The notes beneath the pieces were generated by a model. It saw only the letters and a program-made list of their open reading frames with translations. It was not told where the DNA came from and made no database searches. Both the position numbers and the translations under genes were made by a program. DNA of 64,000 nucleotides from Candidatus Mediterraneibacter intestinipullorum (lineage in GTDB: Bacteria > Bacillota > Clostridia > Lachnospirales > Lachnospiraceae). The stretch is from contig DWYM01000093.1 of the NCBI GenBank assembly GCA_019118665.1, positions 1 through 64,000 on the forward strand. The letters run 5' to 3'. Positions 13,500 to 62,368 of this stretch are shown here, one piece after another; position 1 is the stretch's first letter; each line of letters begins with the position of its first letter.

Positions 13500-14060
13500 T
13501 CAAAAATAAGAGAGGTCTATCCTGACCCCTCTGTCCCACAGTTCGTCTTCCTTCTTCTCCGCAAGCCCATTATTGTAATAAAGCTCTACTGTATCCGGAG
13601 CATCCTTCCCATCCTCTACAAGGACCAGGAGGTGAAGCGTCGGCTCCTCCCCGACAGTCTCTTCATCTTCCCTCAGGAACATAGCGCCGCTGCTGGCCTC
13701 CAGCACCACCTTGGTCTCATACTTTTTCCTTCCTTTTGATGCCACAGCCTCGAAGTCTGCAGGCTTTACTGCGATCCGGGCGGGGTTTATGAGCTTGGCG
13801 CTGACTACATAATAATGATAGCCTTCTTTATCTTCATAGTAATAGAAATATCCCGACGGATCAGCCGGGCTCAGTTCCTCTGTCTCATAGGCTTCTTCTA
13901 TCTGAAGAGTCATCTCCGTTCCCTCTATGGCATAGGACTCCCCCAGCTTAAGCTCCACAGTATCCTCCGCCTTTTCCCGCTTTTCTCCCCCAGCGCAGCC
14001 TACTGTGAGAAAAAGCGCGCCTGCACACAGGGACAGTAAGCACCGTACTCCTTTGATCAT
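13500..14060 (-). CDS. Putative lipoprotein (DUF5067-like)
   Basis: LSLCAGALFLTVGCAGG lipobox; start MIKGVRCL. Confidence 0.6.
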   Translation of the reverse strand: MIKGVRCLLSLCAGALFLTVGCAGGEKREKAEDTVELKLGESYAIEGTEMTLQIEEAYETEELSPADPSGYFYYYEDKEGYHYYVVSAKLINPARIAVKPADFEAVASKGRKKYETKVVLEASSGAMFLREDEETVGEEPTLHLLVLVEDGKDAPDTVELYYNNGLAEKKEDELWDRGVRIDLSYF

Positions 14061-14062
14061 CC

Positions 14063-14824
14063 TTATTCCTCCACTTTCAGCTCTGCCTCGATTCTCCCAG
14101 CGTTCAACGGCTGGGTATAGTCTTCGATGCTCCATGTCGCCACATCCACTATAATGTCATAAGCGCCCGGCTCCAGAGTCTGGTTCAGCTCAAACTCCGG
14201 CACCGCAGTCCCCGGAGCGATATAACCGCTCTCATAAAGGACCTCCCCTGTATCTGCAAGGGAGATGGTATACACAAAGTAGCAGACATTTCCTTCCGGA
14301 TTGATCAACGGAACACGAATAACACCATCTGAATTGCTCACGGTCAGGATGCTGATCCCCGGCAGGGCGATAGAGTCCGGATCATCGTTGATCAGCCCAT
14401 CCGGCATCTCGTAGGCCACGGCTGCCTTCTCAAGATCCGGACCTTCCGGCTCATTTGCCAGCCACAGGTACACGCCTCCGGCGATCAGGGCTGCCAGCAG
14501 CAGCAATAAGGCGATAATCCTTTCCGCCGCCGTGCCAACTACACGCACATATCCGTGCTCCTGCCCATCAGTGCAGGGGATGTATCCCACGATCTTCTGG
14601 AAAAATCCTGGTTTTTGTCTGGTGACATAGAGGGGAAGGATGTGTTCCCCATCTGTCAGGATGTCATCTGTGTTCTTCCCCTTTACTCCGGCATCCCCGC
14701 AGATGATGGCTTTTCCTCTTGTCTGCTTCATGAACACCTTCTGATCCATGCACTTCCAGCTGTGTTTCTTCCGGTCTTTCCAGCTCCGGTTCTCATTGCC
14801 CTGTTCATCATATCTGTACTGCAT
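14063..14824 (-). CDS. Membrane protein of unknown function, paralogue of 14845-15612
   Basis: Single TM followed by an extracytoplasmic domain; shares the VPL/FPLINPEGN-CY--YTI---TGE-LY-SG-I-PG architecture with its neighbour. Confidence 0.65.
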   Translation of the reverse strand: MQYRYDEQGNENRSWKDRKKHSWKCMDQKVFMKQTRGKAIICGDAGVKGKNTDDILTDGEHILPLYVTRQKPGFFQKIVGYIPCTDGQEHGYVRVVGTAAERIIALLLLLAALIAGGVYLWLANEPEGPDLEKAAVAYEMPDGLINDDPDSIALPGISILTVSNSDGVIRVPLINPEGNVCYFVYTISLADTGEVLYESGYIAPGTAVPEFELNQTLEPGAYDIIVDVATWSIEDYTQPLNAGRIEAELKVEE

Positions 14825-14844: not shown

Positions 14845-15612
14845 TTATTCCACCACGAGCTCCGCAGGGATCTGCGCCCCATTGAGCTCTACTGTATAGT
14901 CATTGATATCGGATGTCTGAATCTTGACGAGTATCTGGTAGGTACCGGGATCCAGCGTACAATTCAGATCAAAGTTCAGCACCGCCTTCCCAGGCTCGAT
15001 CCTGCCTGACTGATAGAGTATCTCTCCGGTCTCCATGTCCTGTATGGTGTACTTCATATAGCAGGCATTTCCCTCTGGATTGATCAAGGGAAATTCTACA
15101 GTCCTCTGTCCTGCCTCCATTTTCAGAATGCTGACACCCGGTACTGAGATGCTCTCGGGATCTGTATTCTCCAGTCCCTCTCTCCGGTAGGAGACTGCCG
15201 TTTCATCTAATCCCGGCACCTGCTCCCGGCTGGAAAGCCACCAGCCAAGGAATACACCGCCAGCCAGCAGAAGAAGAATCATCACCGGCAGGATAAGCCC
15301 ACGAAACAAAGCATGCTTTACGATCCGCACATAAGCGTCTTTTTCCGTATCTGTACTGACATCGATATAGCCCACAGTCCGTTCCAGACGTTTTCTCTTC
15401 CTCTGATAAGGGTGCAGACGATAAGCCTCCCCCTTACCCTTAAGAAGGAGATCTTCTGTCCTGCCCTCTTTCCTGCGCATATCCGCCACAATGCGGTAGC
15501 CGCCATTGGGGTAGCGTTCCATCAGTTCCTTTCCCGTCAGATAGCCCCAGGTCCTGCCTTTACTATCCTTGTGCCTGGCAGAATATTCCTGTTTCTTTAC
15601 CGACCATTCCAC
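14845..15612 (-). CDS. Membrane protein of unknown function, paralogue of 14063-14824
   Basis: Same architecture and conserved motifs as the preceding paralogue. Confidence 0.65.
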   Translation of the reverse strand: MEWSVKKQEYSARHKDSKGRTWGYLTGKELMERYPNGGYRIVADMRRKEGRTEDLLLKGKGEAYRLHPYQRKRKRLERTVGYIDVSTDTEKDAYVRIVKHALFRGLILPVMILLLLAGGVFLGWWLSSREQVPGLDETAVSYRREGLENTDPESISVPGVSILKMEAGQRTVEFPLINPEGNACYMKYTIQDMETGEILYQSGRIEPGKAVLNFDLNCTLDPGTYQILVKIQTSDINDYTVELNGAQIPAELVVE

Positions 15613-15749: not shown

Positions 15750-16307
15750 TTATGATTTAGTAACTGTCCATGTAACAACTGCGCTATACTTAGCGTCTGC
15801 AGCAGCAGTGCTGGTTGACGTAATTGATGCGTATGCAGTATCTGTAGTAGTCGTTGTATCAAGTTTCACTATTTCTTGCCCGCTATTCAGGAAATTTCCA
15901 GTATTCGCAGAAGTGTCACCTGGCAGCAGCTGCATATTTACGCCTGTACCGCCAGTCATTGCGATTTCTGCTCCTGTCCAGCCTGATGCTGATGCAGTGA
16001 CAGAAAGGCCATTTCCAACAGCTGTACTTGAAGCAGCACCATTATCTTTATTTGTAAGCGTGAACTTCATTGCAGATCCTTTTGTTGCTGCCTCACTTTC
16101 ATCTGCGGCTTTGTTGTTCTCACCTAAGGTAACGCTAACCGGGAAAGTAATCTTCCAGTTATTTGCCTCATCATCGCCAGGTCCTACGATCGTACCGGAC
16201 GTATAGTTAAATGTTGTTGTTCCTGTTGATGCGAATACTGTTGTTCCCATCATGCTTACTGCCAGTGTTCCAGCTAATAATGCTGCAAAAAGTTTTTTGT
16301 TTCTCAT
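15750..16307 (-). CDS. Secreted surface protein, pilin/WxL-like (C-terminus AVVTWTVTKS)
   Basis: Signal peptide MRNKKLFAALLAGTLAVSMMGTTVFAS; Thr/Ser-rich beta-type sequence; C-terminal TWTVT. Confidence 0.6.
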   Translation of the reverse strand: MRNKKLFAALLAGTLAVSMMGTTVFASTGTTTFNYTSGTIVGPGDDEANNWKITFPVSVTLGENNKAADESEAATKGSAMKFTLTNKDNGAASSTAVGNGLSVTASASGWTGAEIAMTGGTGVNMQLLPGDTSANTGNFLNSGQEIVKLDTTTTTDTAYASITSTSTAAADAKYSAVVTWTVTKS

Positions 16308-21882: not shown

Positions 21883-22350
21883 TTATTCGACTTTCTGGTT
21901 GATAAATTCTTCTCCGGTATCCGCGTTAAGCCAAATCTGGTATGTTTCTTTCCCCTTATCGGCTTGAACTACCCAGTATTTCACACCTTCGTGTTCACGG
22001 ATATCGCATGCTCCGATCTCCGCTTCCTCCCCAAGACTACCAAGAGCCATCTCTCTGGCCTGATCTCTTGTTATCGTCACGGAGCTTTCTTCCGCCAGGA
22101 TCTCTCCTATATTGACTTCCATCACTCCGTTCTCTGTCACGGTCACACCGGTCTGAGCTTCCAGCTGTTCTTTTTCCTCTTCTGTCAATTCTGTTTTGGC
22201 AGGTGCTTCTGAGGCAACCTCTCTTACCTCTTCCGATATGTCTTCCTCATTACCTACGATATCGTATTGTGTATACATATATATACCGGCTCCCGCGACC
22301 AGCGCTGCCGTCAATGTCGACATGAACAGGGCTTTTTTCTGGTGTTTCAT
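21883..22350 (-). CDS. PepSY-domain membrane protein
   Basis: N-terminal TM; ITRDQAREMALGSLGEEAEIGACDIREHEGVKYWVVQADKGKETYQIWLNADTGEEF. Confidence 0.75.
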   Translation of the reverse strand: MKHQKKALFMSTLTAALVAGAGIYMYTQYDIVGNEEDISEEVREVASEAPAKTELTEEEKEQLEAQTGVTVTENGVMEVNIGEILAEESSVTITRDQAREMALGSLGEEAEIGACDIREHEGVKYWVVQADKGKETYQIWLNADTGEEFINQKVE

Positions 22351-22373: not shown

Positions 22374-22889
22374 TCAATTCACCAGTGTCTCCTTCTGAAC
22401 CGCAAACTCTCTCTGAACGCCATCAGCACCTCTCCCGAACCCCACAGCGGGACCGTGGTCGATCCGGCGCTCGATCTCCTCCTCACTCATGTCCTCCAGG
22501 AGACTCGCTATGGTTACTCCGCTCAAGAAATTCTCCCATTTTTTCTGCATCACCGAGTAGCACTTATGTACAGTACAGTAAAACGCGGCGTCCCGCCCAC
22601 AATAACTGTCCCCTTCCAGACATCTGTTGAGAACGACAGTTCCTTCCACTAACAGCACCACATCATAGAGCCGTATGCTCTCCGGCGCTCTGCCAAGACC
22701 GTATCCGCCATTCTTCCCTCTGTGGCTGGTGATCAGTCCTTCGTTGCGAAGCGCCAGCCCTATGCGGTTTAAATATTTTTCTGGTATCTCCATCGCTTCC
22801 GCGATCTCAGCGATGGGCACGACCCTGCCCTCTCTCGCCAGATACGTCAGGATGCGGACGGCATAGTCTGTCGTCAGTTTTAGCTGCAT
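22374..22889 (-). CDS. Rrf2-family transcriptional regulator
   Basis: MQLKLTTDYAVRILTYLAREGRVVPIAEIAEAMEIPEKYLNRIGLALRNEGLITSHRGKNGGYGL; Cys-rich CLEGDSYCGRDAAFYCTVHKCY; start after GAGGAAAAGG RBS. Confidence 0.9.
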   Translation of the reverse strand: MQLKLTTDYAVRILTYLAREGRVVPIAEIAEAMEIPEKYLNRIGLALRNEGLITSHRGKNGGYGLGRAPESIRLYDVVLLVEGTVVLNRCLEGDSYCGRDAAFYCTVHKCYSVMQKKWENFLSGVTIASLLEDMSEEEIERRIDHGPAVGFGRGADGVQREFAVQKETLVN

Positions 22890-23039
22890 AGTCCTTTTCC
22901 TCTCTATAGTCTTTCTTTTCTCTATAAAGGATGCCGCATATTTCACTGCGTGTTCTGATACCTTCATTCATATCCAATTTATCAGGTATTGCTTGATCTT
23001 ATAAAAACATAAATACCTATGCAGCTGTCACCCGGCCTG

Positions 23040-23065
23040 CACCACATAATCGGAATTATGTGGTA
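23040..23065 (+). repeat. Left inverted repeat of the invertible element
   Basis: CACCACATAATCGGAATTATGTGGTA. Confidence 0.95.
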
Positions 23066-23235
23066 GATATGACACCGCGGCAGCTCCATGGGCAGTTGTA
23101 AGTCGGATCATTGAGCTAAAAAACATAGAACAAAGGCATAAAAAGAAATCCTTGCCTGTTTTTCACGACAAAAAACGGAAAAGGATGACTTTTTGCTGCC
23201 CATTTTGACAAAATCAAAAAAATTTTATTTGCCTC

Positions 23236-23264
23236 TTGTCAAAATCAATCGATCCATGTATAAT
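23236..23264 (+). promoter_or_regulatory. Sigma-A type promoter inside the invertible segment
   Basis: TTGTCA (23236-23241), 17-bp spacer, TATAAT (23259-23264). Confidence 0.85.
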
Positions 23265-23302
23265 ATAAAAAACAATTATCTATGTAGATCATCCATTCGG
23301 TA

Positions 23303-23328
23303 TACCACATAATTCCGATTATGTGGTG
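23303..23328 (-). repeat. Right inverted repeat of the invertible element
   Basis: TACCACATAATTCCGATTATGTGGTG, exact reverse complement of 23040-23065. Confidence 0.95.
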
Positions 23329-23336
23329 TTTTTTAT
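23305..23336 (+). terminator. Right recombination site doubling as intrinsic terminator
   Basis: 10-bp stem with TCCG loop followed by GTTTTTTATTTTC. Confidence 0.65.
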
Positions 23337-23346
23337 TTTCCCCCTT

Positions 23347-24171
23347 TTATATTACTAATCCCAGAGCGTCCATACGTTTCCGTGGTTCATGATCTGAGGA
23401 CATGACATAGATCCTTGTGGTGTTGATGCTGCTGTGTCCCAAAATGTCCGCCAGTCTTGCGATATCCTTATCAATCTTGTAAAAGCACCGGGCGAACAGA
23501 TGCCGCAGGTTGTGAGGGAATACCTTCTGCCGGGCCACACCCGCGTCTTTACACAGAGCCTTCATCATCTTCCAGATGTTTGACCGGTCCAGTGGGTTGC
23601 CGTTTTTTGTGACGAATACCGGGCCGGATGAGATTTTTCCTCTTCTAAGGTATTCTTTGAGCGCTTTTCTTAATTTCCCAGAAATAAGGACCACACGGAT
23701 CTTGCCCTTGAGCCGGATCGCTGCCTCTCCCTGTTCTACAGCTTCGACAGTGATATACTTCAGCTCCGACACCCGGATGCCGGTGCCGCAGATGGTCTCT
23801 AAAAGCAGCCGCAGCTTTTCGTTCTTCTTTTGCCTTGCCGCTTCCAAAAGTCGGAGATATTCCGCCTTGCTCAACTCCTTTTCCCGGGGAAGGAAAGGCC
23901 GCTTCTGGATCCGCAGCCGCTTCACCCGCAAGTCCTCTCGTCCTAAATAAGAAAAGAAGCCGTTTAAGGCCGCCAGCTTGACATTGACGCTGCCGGCACG
24001 GTGTTTAGACTGCAGCTCCTCTTTGTACCGGAGTGCCAGCTCCCTTGTGAGTTCCTGACCCTTTGCGAAGCTTAAAAAGTGCAGGATGTCCCTTTTGTAT
24101 TGACGCCGGGTCGCCTCGCTTTTTTCCTCCTGTTCTAAATATTTGATATACTGTTTTACCCTTTCTTCCAT
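23347..24171 (-). CDS. Tyrosine recombinase (candidate DNA invertase)
   Basis: N-terminal core-binding domain; catalytic residues in GTGIRVSELKYI, HNLRHLFA, LGHSSINTTRIYV. Confidence 0.9.
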   Translation of the reverse strand: MEERVKQYIKYLEQEEKSEATRRQYKRDILHFLSFAKGQELTRELALRYKEELQSKHRAGSVNVKLAALNGFFSYLGREDLRVKRLRIQKRPFLPREKELSKAEYLRLLEAARQKKNEKLRLLLETICGTGIRVSELKYITVEAVEQGEAAIRLKGKIRVVLISGKLRKALKEYLRRGKISSGPVFVTKNGNPLDRSNIWKMMKALCKDAGVARQKVFPHNLRHLFARCFYKIDKDIARLADILGHSSINTTRIYVMSSDHEPRKRMDALGLVI

Positions 24172-24266
24172 ATATATGCCTCCTGTTTGTTTTTCTTCAT
24201 ATTATTATCCCTCGAAGGCAATAGAAAAAACATCTGAAAGGCAATTCTTTGTCTGGACAGCAAAAA

Positions 24267-24325
24267 TCCGGGGAAATATAAAGGGAAGGACATGTGTTAT
24301 GTCCTTCCCTTTATATTTCCCCGGA
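24267..24325 (-). terminator. Terminator with 27-bp perfect stem overlapping the 3' end of the kinase gene
   Basis: TCCGGGGAAATATAAAGGGAAGGACAT-GTGTT-ATGTCCTTCCCTTTATATTTCCCCGGA; TTTTT follows on the minus strand. Confidence 0.8.
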
Positions 24326-25267
24326 TCCTGAAGGGGCGCCAAATCTATGTTCCATCAGCATGGTGAGATATTTTTCATACTCTGCCCCTTCATTCCTCGG
24401 CACTCCGTCCCTGACGGCATCCCGGATTGCCAGCTCGATCATTTCTCCTGCCAGCTTCATGTCTTCCGCAAGGTCATCTCCCCGCGCTTTTCCTCCCGCG
24501 ATCACGGAAGCAAACAGATCTCCTGTTCCTGAATAGCCCTCCCCGATGAACGGATGCGCGCGGAACTCTGCCCTGTCTTTTGTGACAGCGAGATTACCCA
24601 TCTTTTCCCTGCCGTCTGCTCTGTCTGTAAAGTGGATTCCGGTGACGACCACCTGTGACGGTCCGCCCTGCATCACATGCCGGGCAAGTTTTTCCGCTGT
24701 CTCCACGATCCTTTTTCCATCATTCCCTCTTCCATCCCGGAGAGCTCCCGCATTCTCATGCGCATGTGCCTCCTGCTCCGCTGCTCCTGCGTTTTTCGCG
24801 ATCTGACTGGGATCTGTGTCGGTCAACAGGCACAGCTCGGTCAGGTTCGGGGTAATAATATCCGCCCGCTGTACCAGACGTTTCATCTCCTCCTGAAACT
24901 CTGATGAGAAAATAGAGAACCTTTCACCATTGTCGCCCATGATCGGATCGACAAGGAGAAAGGTATCCTCTCTGTGAAATACGTCCAGAAAATCAATGGC
25001 TCTCCCGATCTGGAGGCAGCCTGACATAAATCCCATGTAGATTCCGTCAAACCGGACGTCCATCTTCTCCCATTCTCTCTGGATCTTCCCCATCTTATCC
25101 GTATAGTCGTCATAGAAATAGCTGGGGTAGCCGGTCTGCGCGCTCAAAACAGCCGTCGGCAGAGGACAGGGCTGCACTCCCATGGCAGCGATCACCGAGA
25201 CCGCCGCCGTAAGGGAACACCGCCCGAAACCGGACAGATCATTTATCACTGCGATCTTCTTTGTCAT
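24311..25267 (-). CDS. Pyridoxal/pyridoxamine kinase family protein
   Basis: MTKKIAVINDLSGFGRCSLTAAVSVIAAMGVQPCPLPTAVLSAQTGYPSY; LVDPIMGDNG; GTGDLFAS. Confidence 0.85.
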   Translation of the reverse strand: MTKKIAVINDLSGFGRCSLTAAVSVIAAMGVQPCPLPTAVLSAQTGYPSYFYDDYTDKMGKIQREWEKMDVRFDGIYMGFMSGCLQIGRAIDFLDVFHREDTFLLVDPIMGDNGERFSIFSSEFQEEMKRLVQRADIITPNLTELCLLTDTDPSQIAKNAGAAEQEAHAHENAGALRDGRGNDGKRIVETAEKLARHVMQGGPSQVVVTGIHFTDRADGREKMGNLAVTKDRAEFRAHPFIGEGYSGTGDLFASVIAGGKARGDDLAEDMKLAGEMIELAIRDAVRDGVPRNEGAEYEKYLTMLMEHRFGAPSGSGEI

Positions 25268-56980: not shown

Positions 56981-59900
56981 CTATTTATTTTGCCTTTTTT
57001 TCAGTCTGATCATCATAATAATTCCTGCCGAAATGAGGAACACAGCCCCCCACTCCAAGGCAACAGGTGTATCACCGACTTTCACTGTCTGATTCCTATT
57101 ATCAGCAGTCGGGGCCTGCACATTGCCTCCACTTCCCGTTGGCACATCACCCGAAGGACCTGCAGACGGATTGTCGGACGGTACTTCCGGAGCGGCCATT
57201 GCGTCTGTCTTAACGGTCAGAAGTGCCGCTTCTGATTCATTACCAACTCCATTGACAGCTGTAACCATAATCTCATATGTGGTATCTGCCGTAAGCCCTG
57301 TCAACACATACTGTGTATCCGTTATGGCTGTCGTATTCATACGCTGACCATTAACATATACATTATATCCCACAACACCTTCATTATCTCCGGCTGGTCT
57401 CCATGAGATGGAGATACTCTCAGACATGACTTCAACTGTGGTCAGATTTCCGGGAGCAGTCGGACGCTGATCCCCTGGCTCCTGGAATGTTACTGTTGTA
57501 AAACGGACTACATCCGAGACAGAAGTATTTCCTACCGCGTCCACTGCCTCAATCTTGACCTGATACTCTGTCGCAGCTTCCAAACCTCCCAGTTCATACC
57601 GCAGTACTGATGTTGTTAACTCATTTGTCTCACTGATATTAGCCTGTTGTTCTGTGATCGGCGATGCGTTTACCTTAACATCATTCAAATAAATATTATA
57701 ACCGACCACTCCCACATTGTCAGTTGACTCGTTCCACATAACCACTGCACTGTTATGCGTAATATCACTGATCGTAATTCCATCGGGTTTTGTCGGAGCT
57801 TCCCTGTCCGGTGCCACCCCTGTCACAAAGCTGACCGGATTCGATATAGAGCTATTTCCAGCCTCATCCAAAGCCTCAACCTTGACCTGATATTCCGTCT
57901 CAGCCGTCAACCCTGTCAGCTGGAACTTCAGTTCTGTTATCGGGAGCGCGTTGACCTTGTTGTCATTCAGATAAATATTATAACCCGCTACCCCTACATT
58001 GTCAGTTGACTCCGTCCAGGAAACCACTGCGGTGCTTTCTGTTATGCCGCTGACCGCGACTCCGGAAGGAACGGTTGGCGCCTCATTGTCAGACGTTTGT
58101 AGCGCCTCTGTTGCAAAGCTGATGGAGCCTGATGAAGATGTATTCCCTGCTCCATCTACAGCCTCTATCCTGACCTGATATTCCGTCTCAGCCGCCAGCC
58201 CTGTCAGTTGGAACTGCAGTTCTGTTACCGGGAGCGCATTGATCTTGTTGTCATTCAGATAAATATTATAGCCCGCCACTCCTACGTTATCAGTTGAGGC
58301 AGTCCATGAGACCACTGCACTATTGTCCGTAATGGAGCTGACTGCGACTCCACCAGGAGCCGTCGGAGCTTCATTGTCAGGAGGCGTTTTTGTTGTAAAA
58401 CTGATCGGATCAGAGACAGATGTGTTTCCTGCCTCATCTAACGCCTCGACCTTGACCTGATATTCGGTTTCAGCTTCCAGCGCTGTCAGCTCACATCTTA
58501 ATTCTGTTACCGGAGAAGTGTTCACCAGCTTATTATTCAGATAAATATTATAGCCGGTTACTCCCACATTGTCAGTTGACTCTTGCCAAGTGACTTCCGC
58601 ACTATTGTGCGTGATCTTTCCTACCGCAACCTCACTCGGAGAACTCGGCTTCGTCGTATCCACCGTCTTCACTGTGACGGCTTCTGAGCTTTGGGTATTA
58701 CTTGACGTATCCACCGCTTCTACTACAACTTTATATTCTGTTCCAGCCTTGAGATCGGTGAGCGTATATTCTGTAACGGTCACCAGACTCTCATTTATTT
58801 TTGCTTCATCCACATATATATTGTATCCAGCTACTTCTACATTATCTGTGGATGCTGTCCATGTAATCTTCGCACCGGTCTCCGTGATCTCAGATGCTTC
58901 CACATTGGTCGGCGCGTCCGGCGCTGTAATATCCACGGTCTCCACTGTCGCGGCTTCTGATTTTTGTGTATTGTTTGACGTATCCACCGCTTCCACTACA
59001 ACTTTATACTCTGTTCCAGCCTTAAGGTCAGTGAGCATATATTCTGTAGCGGTCACCAGACTCTCATTTACTTTCGCTCCGTCCACATATATATTATACC
59101 CGGCAACTTCTACATTATCTGTGGATGCTGTCCATGTGATCTTCACGCTAGTCTCTGTAACATCAGATGCGGTCACATTAGTCGGAGCGCTTGGCCCTTC
59201 CTCATCTGGTGCTTCCAATGTCGTAAACGTCTCCTCTCTGGATTCCGCTTTATTTCCAGCTTCATCTACAGCCTCGACCTTTACTCTATATTCGGTATCA
59301 GCTTCCAGACCTGTCAGTTCATACTTCAGTTCTTTTACCGTCTCTCCATTCACCTTCTTGTCATTCAGGTAAATGTTGTAGCCACTCACTCCCACGTTGT
59401 CAGTTGACTCTTGCCAGGTCACTTCCGCACTGTTGTGCGTAATGTTTCCTACCGTAACCTCACTCGGCACACTTGGACTCGTCGTATCCACCGTCTTCAC
59501 TGTCCCGGCTTCCGATTTTTGCGTATTATTTGAAGTATCTACCGCTTCTACTACAACCTTATATGTGCTTCCAGCCTTAAGATCGGTCAGCGTATACTCC
59601 GTTCCAGTCACCAGATCCCTATTTACCTGAACATCATCAACATATATATTGTAGCCAGCTACTTTTATATTATCCGTGGATGCTGTCCATGTGATCTTCG
59701 CCCCGGTTGCCGTGATATCAGATACGTTCACATCAGTCGGCGCGCTCGGCGGTATGATGTCTTCAATCACTGCATCCTGGTATGTGATGATCGGTGTTAT
59801 ATGCAATGACGGCTGCGTTGCATTGGTTGACTTGGCAACAACACGGATATAATCGCCCTGTCTCACTTCTATGTTGTCAAAATCTTTCCAGTCCGCAGCG

Positions 59901-62368
59901 CTCACAAAACTTGTACTAAGTGTTACTGACTGTTTCTGCTCGCCATTTACAAGCAGCGATAATGTAACGGTACCAGTGTTTCCGCTCTTACGCAGATATG
60001 GCTCATCACCTACTGTAGAATTTGGAGCAGGCTTCGTAACACCACGCTTCACTTTAAAGGAAACAATTCCGGTCTTTGGCGCTCTGAATGTCATAGCAGT
60101 CTGAGTATCTCCATTTGGTGCAGAAAGAAGTCCCTGTGTGTTCTCTGTGATCGGGGTACTGTGAGTGGCACCAGTAATACCCGGACCATAATACTGCTCC
60201 ACCTGCCAGTTCGGATACGTTGGATCATATGTCATGATATTTGTCCATGCTCCGTTTCCGACCCGCATTTGCCCAAACCATACATTCCCCTGCTGGGGTC
60301 CGGCAAAGTCCAGAGCCCAGTGATATTCATTCTTCTGTTTGACCGTATACTCAGACACAGCGTTGTTGCCTGCCGTAATGCGCAGTATTTCTCCGCCGCT
60401 GAGCAGATCTTTCTCAGACAATTCTGAACCATCCCTGAGGACTGTCACCTTCGATGTTTCACTGACTGTGATATTCGATAAAAACTCGCTCACCATGGTC
60501 GGATTTTTAGCGGTAAACGGAACATAGATCACTTTTTCTGCACTATCTTCATCCGTCATGTACATAGTGGCTATCAGCGTACCTATATACTCTGCCGCTC
60601 CGATCTCCGGTGTGGTAGTGATAGTATTGCCAAAGAAATCCTTCTCCACCGCAAATCCATTTGCGTCCGTGATGACTTTTCCCTTATCGATTGCGGGAGA
60701 ATTCTCCACAAGCTTATAGCCGTCAAACACTGTATTCTGTGCCGGGTTGCTGTGCGGCCTTGCAGTTCCGTCAACCGAAACAGCAGTCGGAGCCGTTCCC
60801 GGGTCTGCAAGAACCGGAGTTCCCGCACTTACATTTACTGCATTTGTGTCCCTGGCGGGTATATTTGAGTAATTATAATACAAGTTGTTGTTATAGGTTA
60901 CTTTATCATTTGTATACCAGGTTTCCGTTTTTGGAGATGTACCGGAATAATAGATAATATTGTTCTCAATCGTTGCCGCGCCATTCTTCATATCCGGACG
61001 GATCAGAGGTACGCCCTGTGCAATATAAAATGTATTGTTATATATATGCGCGTCCGGATTGCTCGGTATGTTCAGCGGTCCGATCATATCGTTCTGACTG
61101 ATATTATAACGGAACGTACTGTTTACAGCCTGCTGAAGACAGAACATAACAGCTCCACCGCTATTCCCGTGGCTGTAATTATACTGATAGAGCGTTCCAT
61201 CACCCGAGTCGGCGTCCCATGCCTGTCCGTCGCCATTTCCTCTGCCCGCGTTCTTCGTGTCAAAGCACTCATTGTACTGGAATACGGCATTTTTGCACTT
61301 CCACGGCCAGATAGCGGCTGCTACCCGACCAAAGTCCGTTGCATTGTAATCCGTTGTATTTATATACTTTGCCGCACCATCGGACACATTGTTTTCTACA
61401 ATGGGACGGTCGCAATACATCGTTGTGATAGCGTCTCCGCCCACATCCTTCATATAGTTATTGCTTATCACTACATTGCTGTGCCCATACTGCCGCATGA
61501 CACTATCAGGGAGCTCATCAGTTGTAAACTTCCCCCAGTACGCAGTATATGCCGCAGCTATACCCCAGCGGTATACATTCTCCACATGGCAGTTTGTGAT
61601 CTGCAGGTCATTATATCTCGGTATGCCCGTCTGCGTTTCATTTGTCGGCAGAGCAGCAATAAAATAGATACCGCCGTTCAACATGTGTTTATTGTATACG
61701 TTGCCATCTACATCATGCACATACAGGTCATCCAGAACAATATGGTCTGCCGTTCCAATATTCTGCGTCATTCCAGCCACACCTGTGCGGTCCATTACAT
61801 TTTTACCATTCCATGGCTTCCCCGCATCTTCAGGATGAAGCTCCCCCCGGTCTCTGTCATTTGTAATCTCAAGACCACTGATCTCGATATATTCTACGTC
61901 TTTTAGCAGAACAGCCGAAGAGACATTCCCCTGCCATTTATGTTGCGCATTACCCAGTTGCTGGCCATAGCTCTGATACCATACACCTGTACCATTGGCA
62001 TTGATCTGAGGACGAGCGCCATCGCCATATGTAGAAATGATAATAGGAGCCGCCTCGCTTCCTTTGCTCCCCTCCTTTATGTGCAGGTATTGACTGTCAA
62101 ATACAGAGCCTTTTTCCAAAAGCACCTGATCGCCAGGCCCAAGTGTGATCTCATTGATCTTGCTAAGTGATTGAAAGGGCTCATCCTGCGACGTTCCGGG
62201 ATTCGCATCGTCTCCGTTTACAGAACTTACATAATATGTGGTCCCGATCTCCTGGTTTACTGTTTCCCCCGCTCCTGTATCAGCCGCCTGCACCACAGGT
62301 GTCTGGAACATACTTCCTGCCGCGATTACAATGCTCAAAACAGAAGCAATCCACTGATTTCTCTTCAT
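56981..62368 (-). CDS. Surface-anchored right-handed beta-helix protein, GH136 lacto-N-biosidase-like, with about nine FN3 domains
   Basis: Signal peptide; YYVSSVNGDDANPGTSQDEPFQSLSKINEITLGPGDQVLLEKGSVF; beta-helix with NGDGQAWDADSGDGTLYQYNYSHGNSGGAVMFC; FN3 array; C-terminal VKVGDTP-TM-KKRQNK anchor. Confidence 0.7.
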   Translation of the reverse strand: MKRNQWIASVLSIVIAAGSMFQTPVVQAADTGAGETVNQEIGTTYYVSSVNGDDANPGTSQDEPFQSLSKINEITLGPGDQVLLEKGSVFDSQYLHIKEGSKGSEAAPIIISTYGDGARPQINANGTGVWYQSYGQQLGNAQHKWQGNVSSAVLLKDVEYIEISGLEITNDRDRGELHPEDAGKPWNGKNVMDRTGVAGMTQNIGTADHIVLDDLYVHDVDGNVYNKHMLNGGIYFIAALPTNETQTGIPRYNDLQITNCHVENVYRWGIAAAYTAYWGKFTTDELPDSVMRQYGHSNVVISNNYMKDVGGDAITTMYCDRPIVENNVSDGAAKYINTTDYNATDFGRVAAAIWPWKCKNAVFQYNECFDTKNAGRGNGDGQAWDADSGDGTLYQYNYSHGNSGGAVMFCLQQAVNSTFRYNISQNDMIGPLNIPSNPDAHIYNNTFYIAQGVPLIRPDMKNGAATIENNIIYYSGTSPKTETWYTNDKVTYNNNLYYNYSNIPARDTNAVNVSAGTPVLADPGTAPTAVSVDGTARPHSNPAQNTVFDGYKLVENSPAIDKGKVITDANGFAVEKDFFGNTITTTPEIGAAEYIGTLIATMYMTDEDSAEKVIYVPFTAKNPTMVSEFLSNITVSETSKVTVLRDGSELSEKDLLSGGEILRITAGNNAVSEYTVKQKNEYHWALDFAGPQQGNVWFGQMRVGNGAWTNIMTYDPTYPNWQVEQYYGPGITGATHSTPITENTQGLLSAPNGDTQTAMTFRAPKTGIVSFKVKRGVTKPAPNSTVGDEPYLRKSGNTGTVTLSLLVNGEQKQSVTLSTSFVSAADWKDFDNIEVRQGDYIRVVAKSTNATQPSLHITPIITYQDAVIEDIIPPSAPTDVNVSDITATGAKITWTASTDNIKVAGYNIYVDDVQVNRDLVTGTEYTLTDLKAGSTYKVVVEAVDTSNNTQKSEAGTVKTVDTTSPSVPSEVTVGNITHNSAEVTWQESTDNVGVSGYNIYLNDKKVNGETVKELKYELTGLEADTEYRVKVEAVDEAGNKAESREETFTTLEAPDEEGPSAPTNVTASDVTETSVKITWTASTDNVEVAGYNIYVDGAKVNESLVTATEYMLTDLKAGTEYKVVVEAVDTSNNTQKSEAATVETVDITAPDAPTNVEASEITETGAKITWTASTDNVEVAGYNIYVDEAKINESLVTVTEYTLTDLKAGTEYKVVVEAVDTSSNTQSSEAVTVKTVDTTKPSSPSEVAVGKITHNSAEVTWQESTDNVGVTGYNIYLNNKLVNTSPVTELRCELTALEAETEYQVKVEALDEAGNTSVSDPISFTTKTPPDNEAPTAPGGVAVSSITDNSAVVSWTASTDNVGVAGYNIYLNDNKINALPVTELQFQLTGLAAETEYQVRIEAVDGAGNTSSSGSISFATEALQTSDNEAPTVPSGVAVSGITESTAVVSWTESTDNVGVAGYNIYLNDNKVNALPITELKFQLTGLTAETEYQVKVEALDEAGNSSISNPVSFVTGVAPDREAPTKPDGITISDITHNSAVVMWNESTDNVGVVGYNIYLNDVKVNASPITEQQANISETNELTTSVLRYELGGLEAATEYQVKIEAVDAVGNTSVSDVVRFTTVTFQEPGDQRPTAPGNLTTVEVMSESISISWRPAGDNEGVVGYNVYVNGQRMNTTAITDTQYVLTGLTADTTYEIMVTAVNGVGNESEAALLTVKTDAMAAPEVPSDNPSAGPSGDVPTGSGGNVQAPTADNRNQTVKVGDTPVALEWGAVFLISAGIIMMIRLKKRQNK
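57200..59765 (-). repeat. FN3-encoding tandem repeats (about 9 units of ~280 bp)
   Basis: Recurring SA-ITW-ASTDNV-VAGYNIY---KVN---VTE--Y-LT-L-A-TEY-VKVEAVD in the translation. Confidence 0.9.

Follow-up and report, generated by a model that had tools for sequence, protein, structure and literature searches.

Invertible promoters are an established class of switch, represented by fimS, the C. difficile switches and the Bacteroides invertons, and have so far been studied mainly in Bacteroidota and C. difficile. The E. coli fimS element carries its promoter on an invertible segment of about 300 bp, adjoins the genes of the tyrosine recombinases FimB and FimE and sets a surface trait ON or OFF (in part PMC5763102). 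The C. difficile switches Cdi1-Cdi7 are segments of 154-230 bp between inverted repeats, with RecV as the tyrosine recombinase; Cdi7 is the only switch of strain R20291 with a neighbouring recombinase (CDR20291_3416) and is RecV-independent (PMC5903667). In the main text of the hCom2 inverton catalogue, groups 139 and 125 are dominated by Firmicutes_A, and group 139 is tied to tyrosine-type recombinases (PMC11892184). A similar site is E. coli dif, GGTGCGCATAATGTATATTATGTTAAAT, which contains TTATGT (PMC3025954).

In this study, we compared with these systems a locus within a 64,000-nt stretch of contig DWYM01000093.1 of Candidatus Mediterraneibacter intestinipullorum (the window). The locus is very probably a phase-variation switch, in which the adjacent recombinase would invert a promoter segment and thereby toggle the rrf2-pepSY-giant protein operon. 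It has the anatomy of an inverton: a short promoter-bearing segment within inverted repeats, both orientations among homologues and paralogues, and an intact recombinase nearby. Its parts are listed here by position.

13500..14135, minus strand: probable lipoprotein, final gene of the conserved operon
14063..14824, minus strand: paralogue of the membrane protein at 14845..15612
14845..15612, minus strand: membrane protein with an extracellular C-terminal domain
15750..16307, minus strand: small secreted protein, 185 aa
16712..21859, minus strand: giant secreted protein, 1715 aa, with a signal-peptide-like N terminus and no Pfam domain; about 30-33% identity between operon copies
21883..22350, minus strand: membrane-anchored PepSY-like protein (weak PF03413, E=5e-4, under the curated cut-off)
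22374..22889, minus strand: rrf2 regulator, 171 aa when read from the better-supported start (Pfam Rrf2 E=6e-33; alignment), with a cysteine-rich C-terminal stretch NRCLEGDSYCGRDAAFYCTVHKC
22890..23039, minus strand: leader from the left site to rrf2, promoterless by promoter scoring
23040..23065, unstranded: left recombination site, on the target side, with its core ACATAA-TCGGAA-TTATGT at 23044-23061; 26/26 inverted repeat, core kept in 68 fully matched loci
23066..23302, unstranded: invertible segment, OFF in the present assembly, inverted in the paralogue G000:C76 and in G010:C34a
23148..23186, plus strand (folds on minus too): hairpin then T-run upstream of the promoter (z=-3.5 on plus, -1.7 on minus)
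23236..23264, plus strand: promoter TTGTCA-N17-TATAAT, 11/12 match, directed away from the operon, with a -35/-10 region that is kept in 5 homologous segments
23276..23300, plus strand: 25-nt block just past the promoter, identical in C74, C76, C34a and C34b; candidate operator or leader element
23302..23338, plus strand: right-repeat hairpin plus TTTTTTATTTT (z=-6.1)
23303..23328, unstranded: right recombination site, on the recombinase side, with its core ACATAA-TTCCGA-TTATGT at 23307-23324 in inverted orientation to the left site
23347..24171, minus strand: Xer-like tyrosine recombinase, 274 aa, with R133, K157, H220, R223, H246 and Y255 invariant

A preliminary description of this DNA had proposed an invertible-promoter switch for a surface operon, OFF here, and the proposal is supported: homologous segments are inverted relative to homologous flanks, promoters are segment-specific, and the pairing of recombinase and repeats is conserved across Clostridia. 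Most of its details also held. The perfect 26-bp inverted repeats that it placed around 237 bp are complementary at 26/26 positions, and the tyrosine recombinase gene that it saw adjoining them is an intact minus-strand ORF with a Pfam Phage_integrase match (E=7e-29), its stop codon 18 nt from the right arm. The plus-strand TTGTCA-N17-TATAAT, described as facing the 3' end of the recombinase gene, scored 11/12 and is the sole strong promoter found at the switch. The gap between the left repeat and rrf2 had been described as lacking a strong promoter, and a scan for leftward matches of at least 9/12 found none there, either in the window or in four homologous loci. The predicted leader of about 200 nt into rrf2 was computed at about 209 nt, with the -10 moving to 23104-23109 in the modelled inversion. 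The minus-strand rrf2-pepSY-giant protein operon beyond the left repeat was upheld for Rrf2, the PepSY assignment is weak, and for rrf2 the ATG at 22889 (RBS agagaggaaaagg) is better supported as the start than 22967.

The length of the arms is far beyond chance. With spacings of 30-400 nt, the runner-up inverted repeat of the whole 64-kb window is 11 nt long, and the maximum in shuffled windows (n=30) was 14 nt. The left arm, ACCACATAAT-CGGA-ATTATGTGGT, is palindromic around an asymmetric centre, and the right arm is built likewise around ...TCCG...; since each arm has this form, the two are, as judged by their sequence, inverted copies of one recombination-site-like element. Deletion or excision of the segment was ruled out because the sites are inverted rather than direct and their spacers agree in the inverted register only.

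The same arrangement recurs in a family of recombinases of at least 40% identity, collected from relatives' genomes and GTDB contigs (102 homologues, 90 of them followed by 300 nt or more on the 3' side). In a FastTree phylogeny, the family falls on one side of a branch (local support 88). An inverted-repeat pair lies directly 3' of the recombinase gene in 83/90 loci, and in two family loci without a pair (L044 and L128) the contig stops before the far site would be visible. The family core is ACATAA-N6-TTATGT, and the entire 18-nt core agrees between both sites in 68 loci. Arm positions are near-invariant, and the four inner spacer positions carry 0.03-0.23 bits between loci. The 6-nt spacer is equal within nearly every pair, a match partly selected for because repeat detection needed a perfect stretch of at least 14 nt, and 51 distinct spacers occur among the 68 fully matched loci. 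Palindromic spacers were absent (0/68), which is not significant, about one being expected by chance. Fixed arms with a varying, pair-matched spacer would be expected if a tyrosine recombinase binds the arms and needs homology between the spacers. In two loci (L136 and L156) the arms 3' of the recombinase read ACGGAAT...ATTCCGT, not ACATAAT...ATTATGT, and are altered in step on both sides; these are apparently natural shifts of recombinase specificity.

The repeats could instead be transcription terminators or the ends of a mobile element, the recombinase being an integrase that acts elsewhere. The right repeat and its T-run do make a good terminator-like hairpin, and tyrosine recombinases are often integrases. 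However, a terminator has no need for a matched asymmetric spacer common to two distant inverted copies, the segments occur inverted, and a second element boundary was not found. Moreover, the more distant, integrase-like recombinases (26-42% identity, with enough sequence) have the repeat pair in 0/77 cases; L025, counted at 31% and carrying a pair, was left out of this control as a frameshifted family member in two pieces of 40-48%. We give this explanation hardly any credence.

The recombinase of the switch is most like Xer proteins: its best profile matches are XerA-like and XerD models, its best structure matches are Xer structures, and it stays under the XerC/XerD equivalog cut-offs (133 of 330 bits for XerD, 127 of 335 bits for XerC). 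Set against E. coli dif, the sites are dif-like, with a 6-nt centre and ACATAA-N6-TTATGT in 68 loci, and with Xer/dif and archaeal XerA the family shares the 6-bp centre, the TTATGT of E. coli dif and an Xer-like recombinase (PMC3025954). The dif-like core together with the Xer-like protein suggests an Xer-derived invertase. The TTATGT of dif is presumably its XerD arm. In contrast to Xer/dif, the family has symmetric arms, two inverted sites, and inversion rather than dimer resolution, and its recombinases are multi-copy and adjacent to their own sites, that of the window scoring far under the XerC/XerD cut-offs. We infer that the recombinase is a locally dedicated invertase, which would bind the palindromic arms (ACATAA/TTATGT) of the two inverted sites; strand exchange within the asymmetric 6-nt spacer, presumably catalysed by this adjacent enzyme, would then invert the segment of about 240 bp. 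On the far side of the recombinase gene, a perfect 28-bp inverted repeat with a 5-nt loop (24266-24326) overlies the 3' end of a pyridoxamine-kinase-like gene; this very strong hairpin, between the two genes, is probably the terminator of the kinase-like gene.

A second element is present in the same genome on contig C76 (arms 398-421 / 651-674), with its own recombinase (88% identical) directly beside it. Its segment is homologous to that of the window and, measured against recombinase and rrf2, is flipped: the copy in the window is OFF and that in C76 ON. Outside these two switches, the genome has just one more perfect core, a solitary site on contig C79. This was dropped as a third switch, as the core site is lone, the recombinase is 27% identical and the inverted repeats are only imperfect. 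The C79 locus (L006, 108-2218) encodes a tyrosine recombinase of 281 aa, flanked by two short Xer-like proteins (161 and 150 aa), with the lone ACATAATAGCAATTATGT palindrome at 721-738; near relatives of this recombinase occur in G034 and G021.

Across the family, segment pairs with homologous target flanks, anchored on the recombinase, are in opposite orientation in 8 cases and in the same orientation in 5. Genomes G005 (ON) and G026 (OFF) have orthologous flanks and opposite segments. These differences lie between species and paralogues, among homologues at about 77-88% DNA identity, in assemblies that are mostly MAGs with one genome per species. On these alignments, inversion is established as a historical event between homologues. 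The switch might have inverted formerly and now be locked, or flip so rarely that its role is evolutionary and not physiological. Orientation differences confined to species and paralogues would fit this, as would the near-identical viral_contigs loci (L157/L158 and L151/L165), which have the same orientation within each pair. However, the recombinase is intact with all catalytic residues present, the arms are perfect and the spacers matched, features that would decay if unused, and contigs stop exactly at the arms in several assemblies (L079, L123, L104, L106 and L101 end inside the first arm or at most 4 nt from it). In 79 unselected loci, contig ends at most 900 nt from the recombinase numbered 15 on the 3' (switch) side and 5 on the 5' side. 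Such ends are as mixed orientations would cause, and are indirect evidence, as multi-copy sequence also breaks contigs. A locked or nearly locked element seems quite improbable to us; we favour a switch that still operates, for which the benefit would be heterogeneous surface display through switching within one population.

A promoter on the segment is a general feature of the family. Matches of at least 10/12 occur in 65% of 82 segments, against 13% of dinucleotide shuffles (p=5e-27) and 6% of equal-length target flanks. Where one promoter direction is clearly better, 37 segments are OFF and 13 ON, and 32/82 have no clearly one-sided promoter by the scoring used. Of 78 loci with an ORF downstream, 72 have the longer one directed away from the switch. 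In the OFF state of the window, the promoter would fire toward the recombinase, and the right repeat with TTTTTTATTTT is a probable terminator of this transcript before antisense entry into the recombinase gene. After inversion, the promoter would face left, and its transcript would cross the left repeat, which lacks a T-run, and enter rrf2-pepSY-giant secreted-small secreted-two membrane proteins-lipoprotein. This asymmetry extends to the family, in which the 12 nt outward of the repeat contain a mean of 5.6 T on the recombinase side versus 3.6 on the target side (p=2e-4). The internal hairpin at 23148..23186, in which two base pairs show compensatory changes across 5 homologues (modest evidence at this number), is probably a terminator that would insulate the operon from recombinase transcription in either orientation.

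It is also conceivable that the promoter flips while the operon is mainly under another promoter or Rrf2 itself, so that the switch merely tunes expression. An Rrf2 regulator is the first gene of the operon, and its cysteine-rich C-terminal stretch resembles those of Fe-S-type Rrf2 proteins. The conserved 25-nt block past the promoter may be an Rrf2 operator; within 3 mismatches it is confined to the two switches in its own genome. In addition, a weak leftward 9/12 match inside the OFF segment (23288-23260) could leak in the OFF state. Against this stands the empty promoter scan upstream of rrf2, as far as the left arm, in the window and in the four homologous loci, and we consider mere tuning unlikely. 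The promoterless leader also holds an inverted repeat, TACCTGAT...AGGTATC (22940-22996), mostly conserved in C76 and G009, a possible hairpin or operator.

The C. difficile switches resemble this family in their occurrence in Clostridia, short segments, inverted repeats, tyrosine recombinase and control of surface and signalling genes, and differ in that RecV acts in trans on several sites and the Cdi repeats are mostly unrelated to each other (PMC5903667). A master recombinase of the RecV or Mpi kind was ruled out here, because both inverted-site pairs in the genome have a private recombinase; unlinked sites lacking a local recombinase were not found in it. The preliminary description had cited Mpi and RecV as established precedents; the mechanism class is indeed known, but the Bacteroides enzyme Mpi belongs to the serine recombinases (PMC5903667). 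Cdi7 differs in spanning a small ORF (PMC5903667), and may be related to the ACATAA-N6-TTATGT family. With fimS the locus shares its general layout. That switch differs in having a recombinase of another subfamily, unrelated repeats and required host factors, and in not being dif-like. The gut invertons of Bacteroidota and hCom2 are alike in their invertible promoters by non-regulatable invertase genes and in the surface products downstream, as far as the main text of the catalogue describes them; its passages on the hCom2 groups set out neither their anatomy nor a spacer rule or a terminator design (PMC11892184). Compared by description, the family may be hCom2 group 139, and gut inverton catalogues may hold it unlabelled. 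In the literature, with the hCom2 motifs and the Cdi7 sequence out of reach, we found no account of the ACATAA-N6-TTATGT site, spacer rule or module. The switch is one member of a large family in Clostridia and is not unique to this operon.

The recombinase family is present in 45 of 283 good-quality genomes drawn evenly across the class (~16%), in 35/181 genera and in up to 8 copies. Cultured isolates that carry it include Bittarella massiliensis GD6 (L061), Eubacterium sp. An11 (L062), Hungatella effluvii DSM 24995 (L085) and Clostridium transplantifaecale (L107). The first target genes mostly encode signal-peptide-bearing giant proteins, including SLH-like ones (L084 and L122); the target of Pusillibacter L147 is annotated as S-layer homology, the other target names being read by eye. 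Regulators, CheW-like, glycan-biosynthesis and other genes are further targets. The switches of L048, L049, L082 and L133 precede genes for what we take to be DLTG.RFG.LTV-type (AP2/HNH-like) proteins, not surface proteins. Since 33/46 homologous segment pairs precede non-homologous flanks, the module appears to be reused before different genes.

The locus-specific spacers should confine each recombinase to the segment beside it and prevent recombination between paralogous switches. With somewhat less than even confidence, we propose that these are Clostridia-wide, modular plug-in switches, each an Xer-derived invertase with symmetric dif-like sites. The spacer would act as a private address, so that up to eight paralogous switches per genome flip independently. 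In Mediterraneibacter, the result would be a tandem repertoire of giant surface proteins, each with its own regulator, allowing combinatorial ON/OFF antigenic variation and cross-talk through Rrf2. The rule of a family recombinase plus an inverted ACATAA-N6-TTATGT pair with equal spacers lets switches be read from assemblies. By this rule, about 16% of the sampled good-quality Clostridia genomes should have surface proteins, glycan-related genes and regulators that are phase-variable. It also makes spacer identity testable as the isolator of paralogous switches, and the family provides a naturally occurring set of compact invertases that may be orthogonal.

The operon of the window extends from rrf2 to about 13500. 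Its 1715-aa giant protein gave no match in Pfam, PADLOC or PDB and one far sub-threshold match in NCBIfam. In G010, a genome of the same genus (Mediterraneibacter, Lachnospiraceae), the whole operon including the switch occurs twice in tandem (L038/L143, C34), one copy ON and the other OFF. Compared with the window, these tandem operons have 82% identity in rrf2, 60-66% in the membrane proteins and only 30-33% in the giant protein, and extra membrane-protein copies were found in G009 and G010. The pattern suggests a repertoire of surface proteins that have diverged from each other, in cassettes that are conserved in their other parts and switched one by one. A second giant protein in the window (56981-62368, 1795 aa), with no link to the switch, has a weakly matched beta-helix-like N-terminal part, nine fibronectin type III domains and a C-terminal membrane anchor; a region like its N-terminal part is encoded past the operon in G010 (L143 2664-4403).
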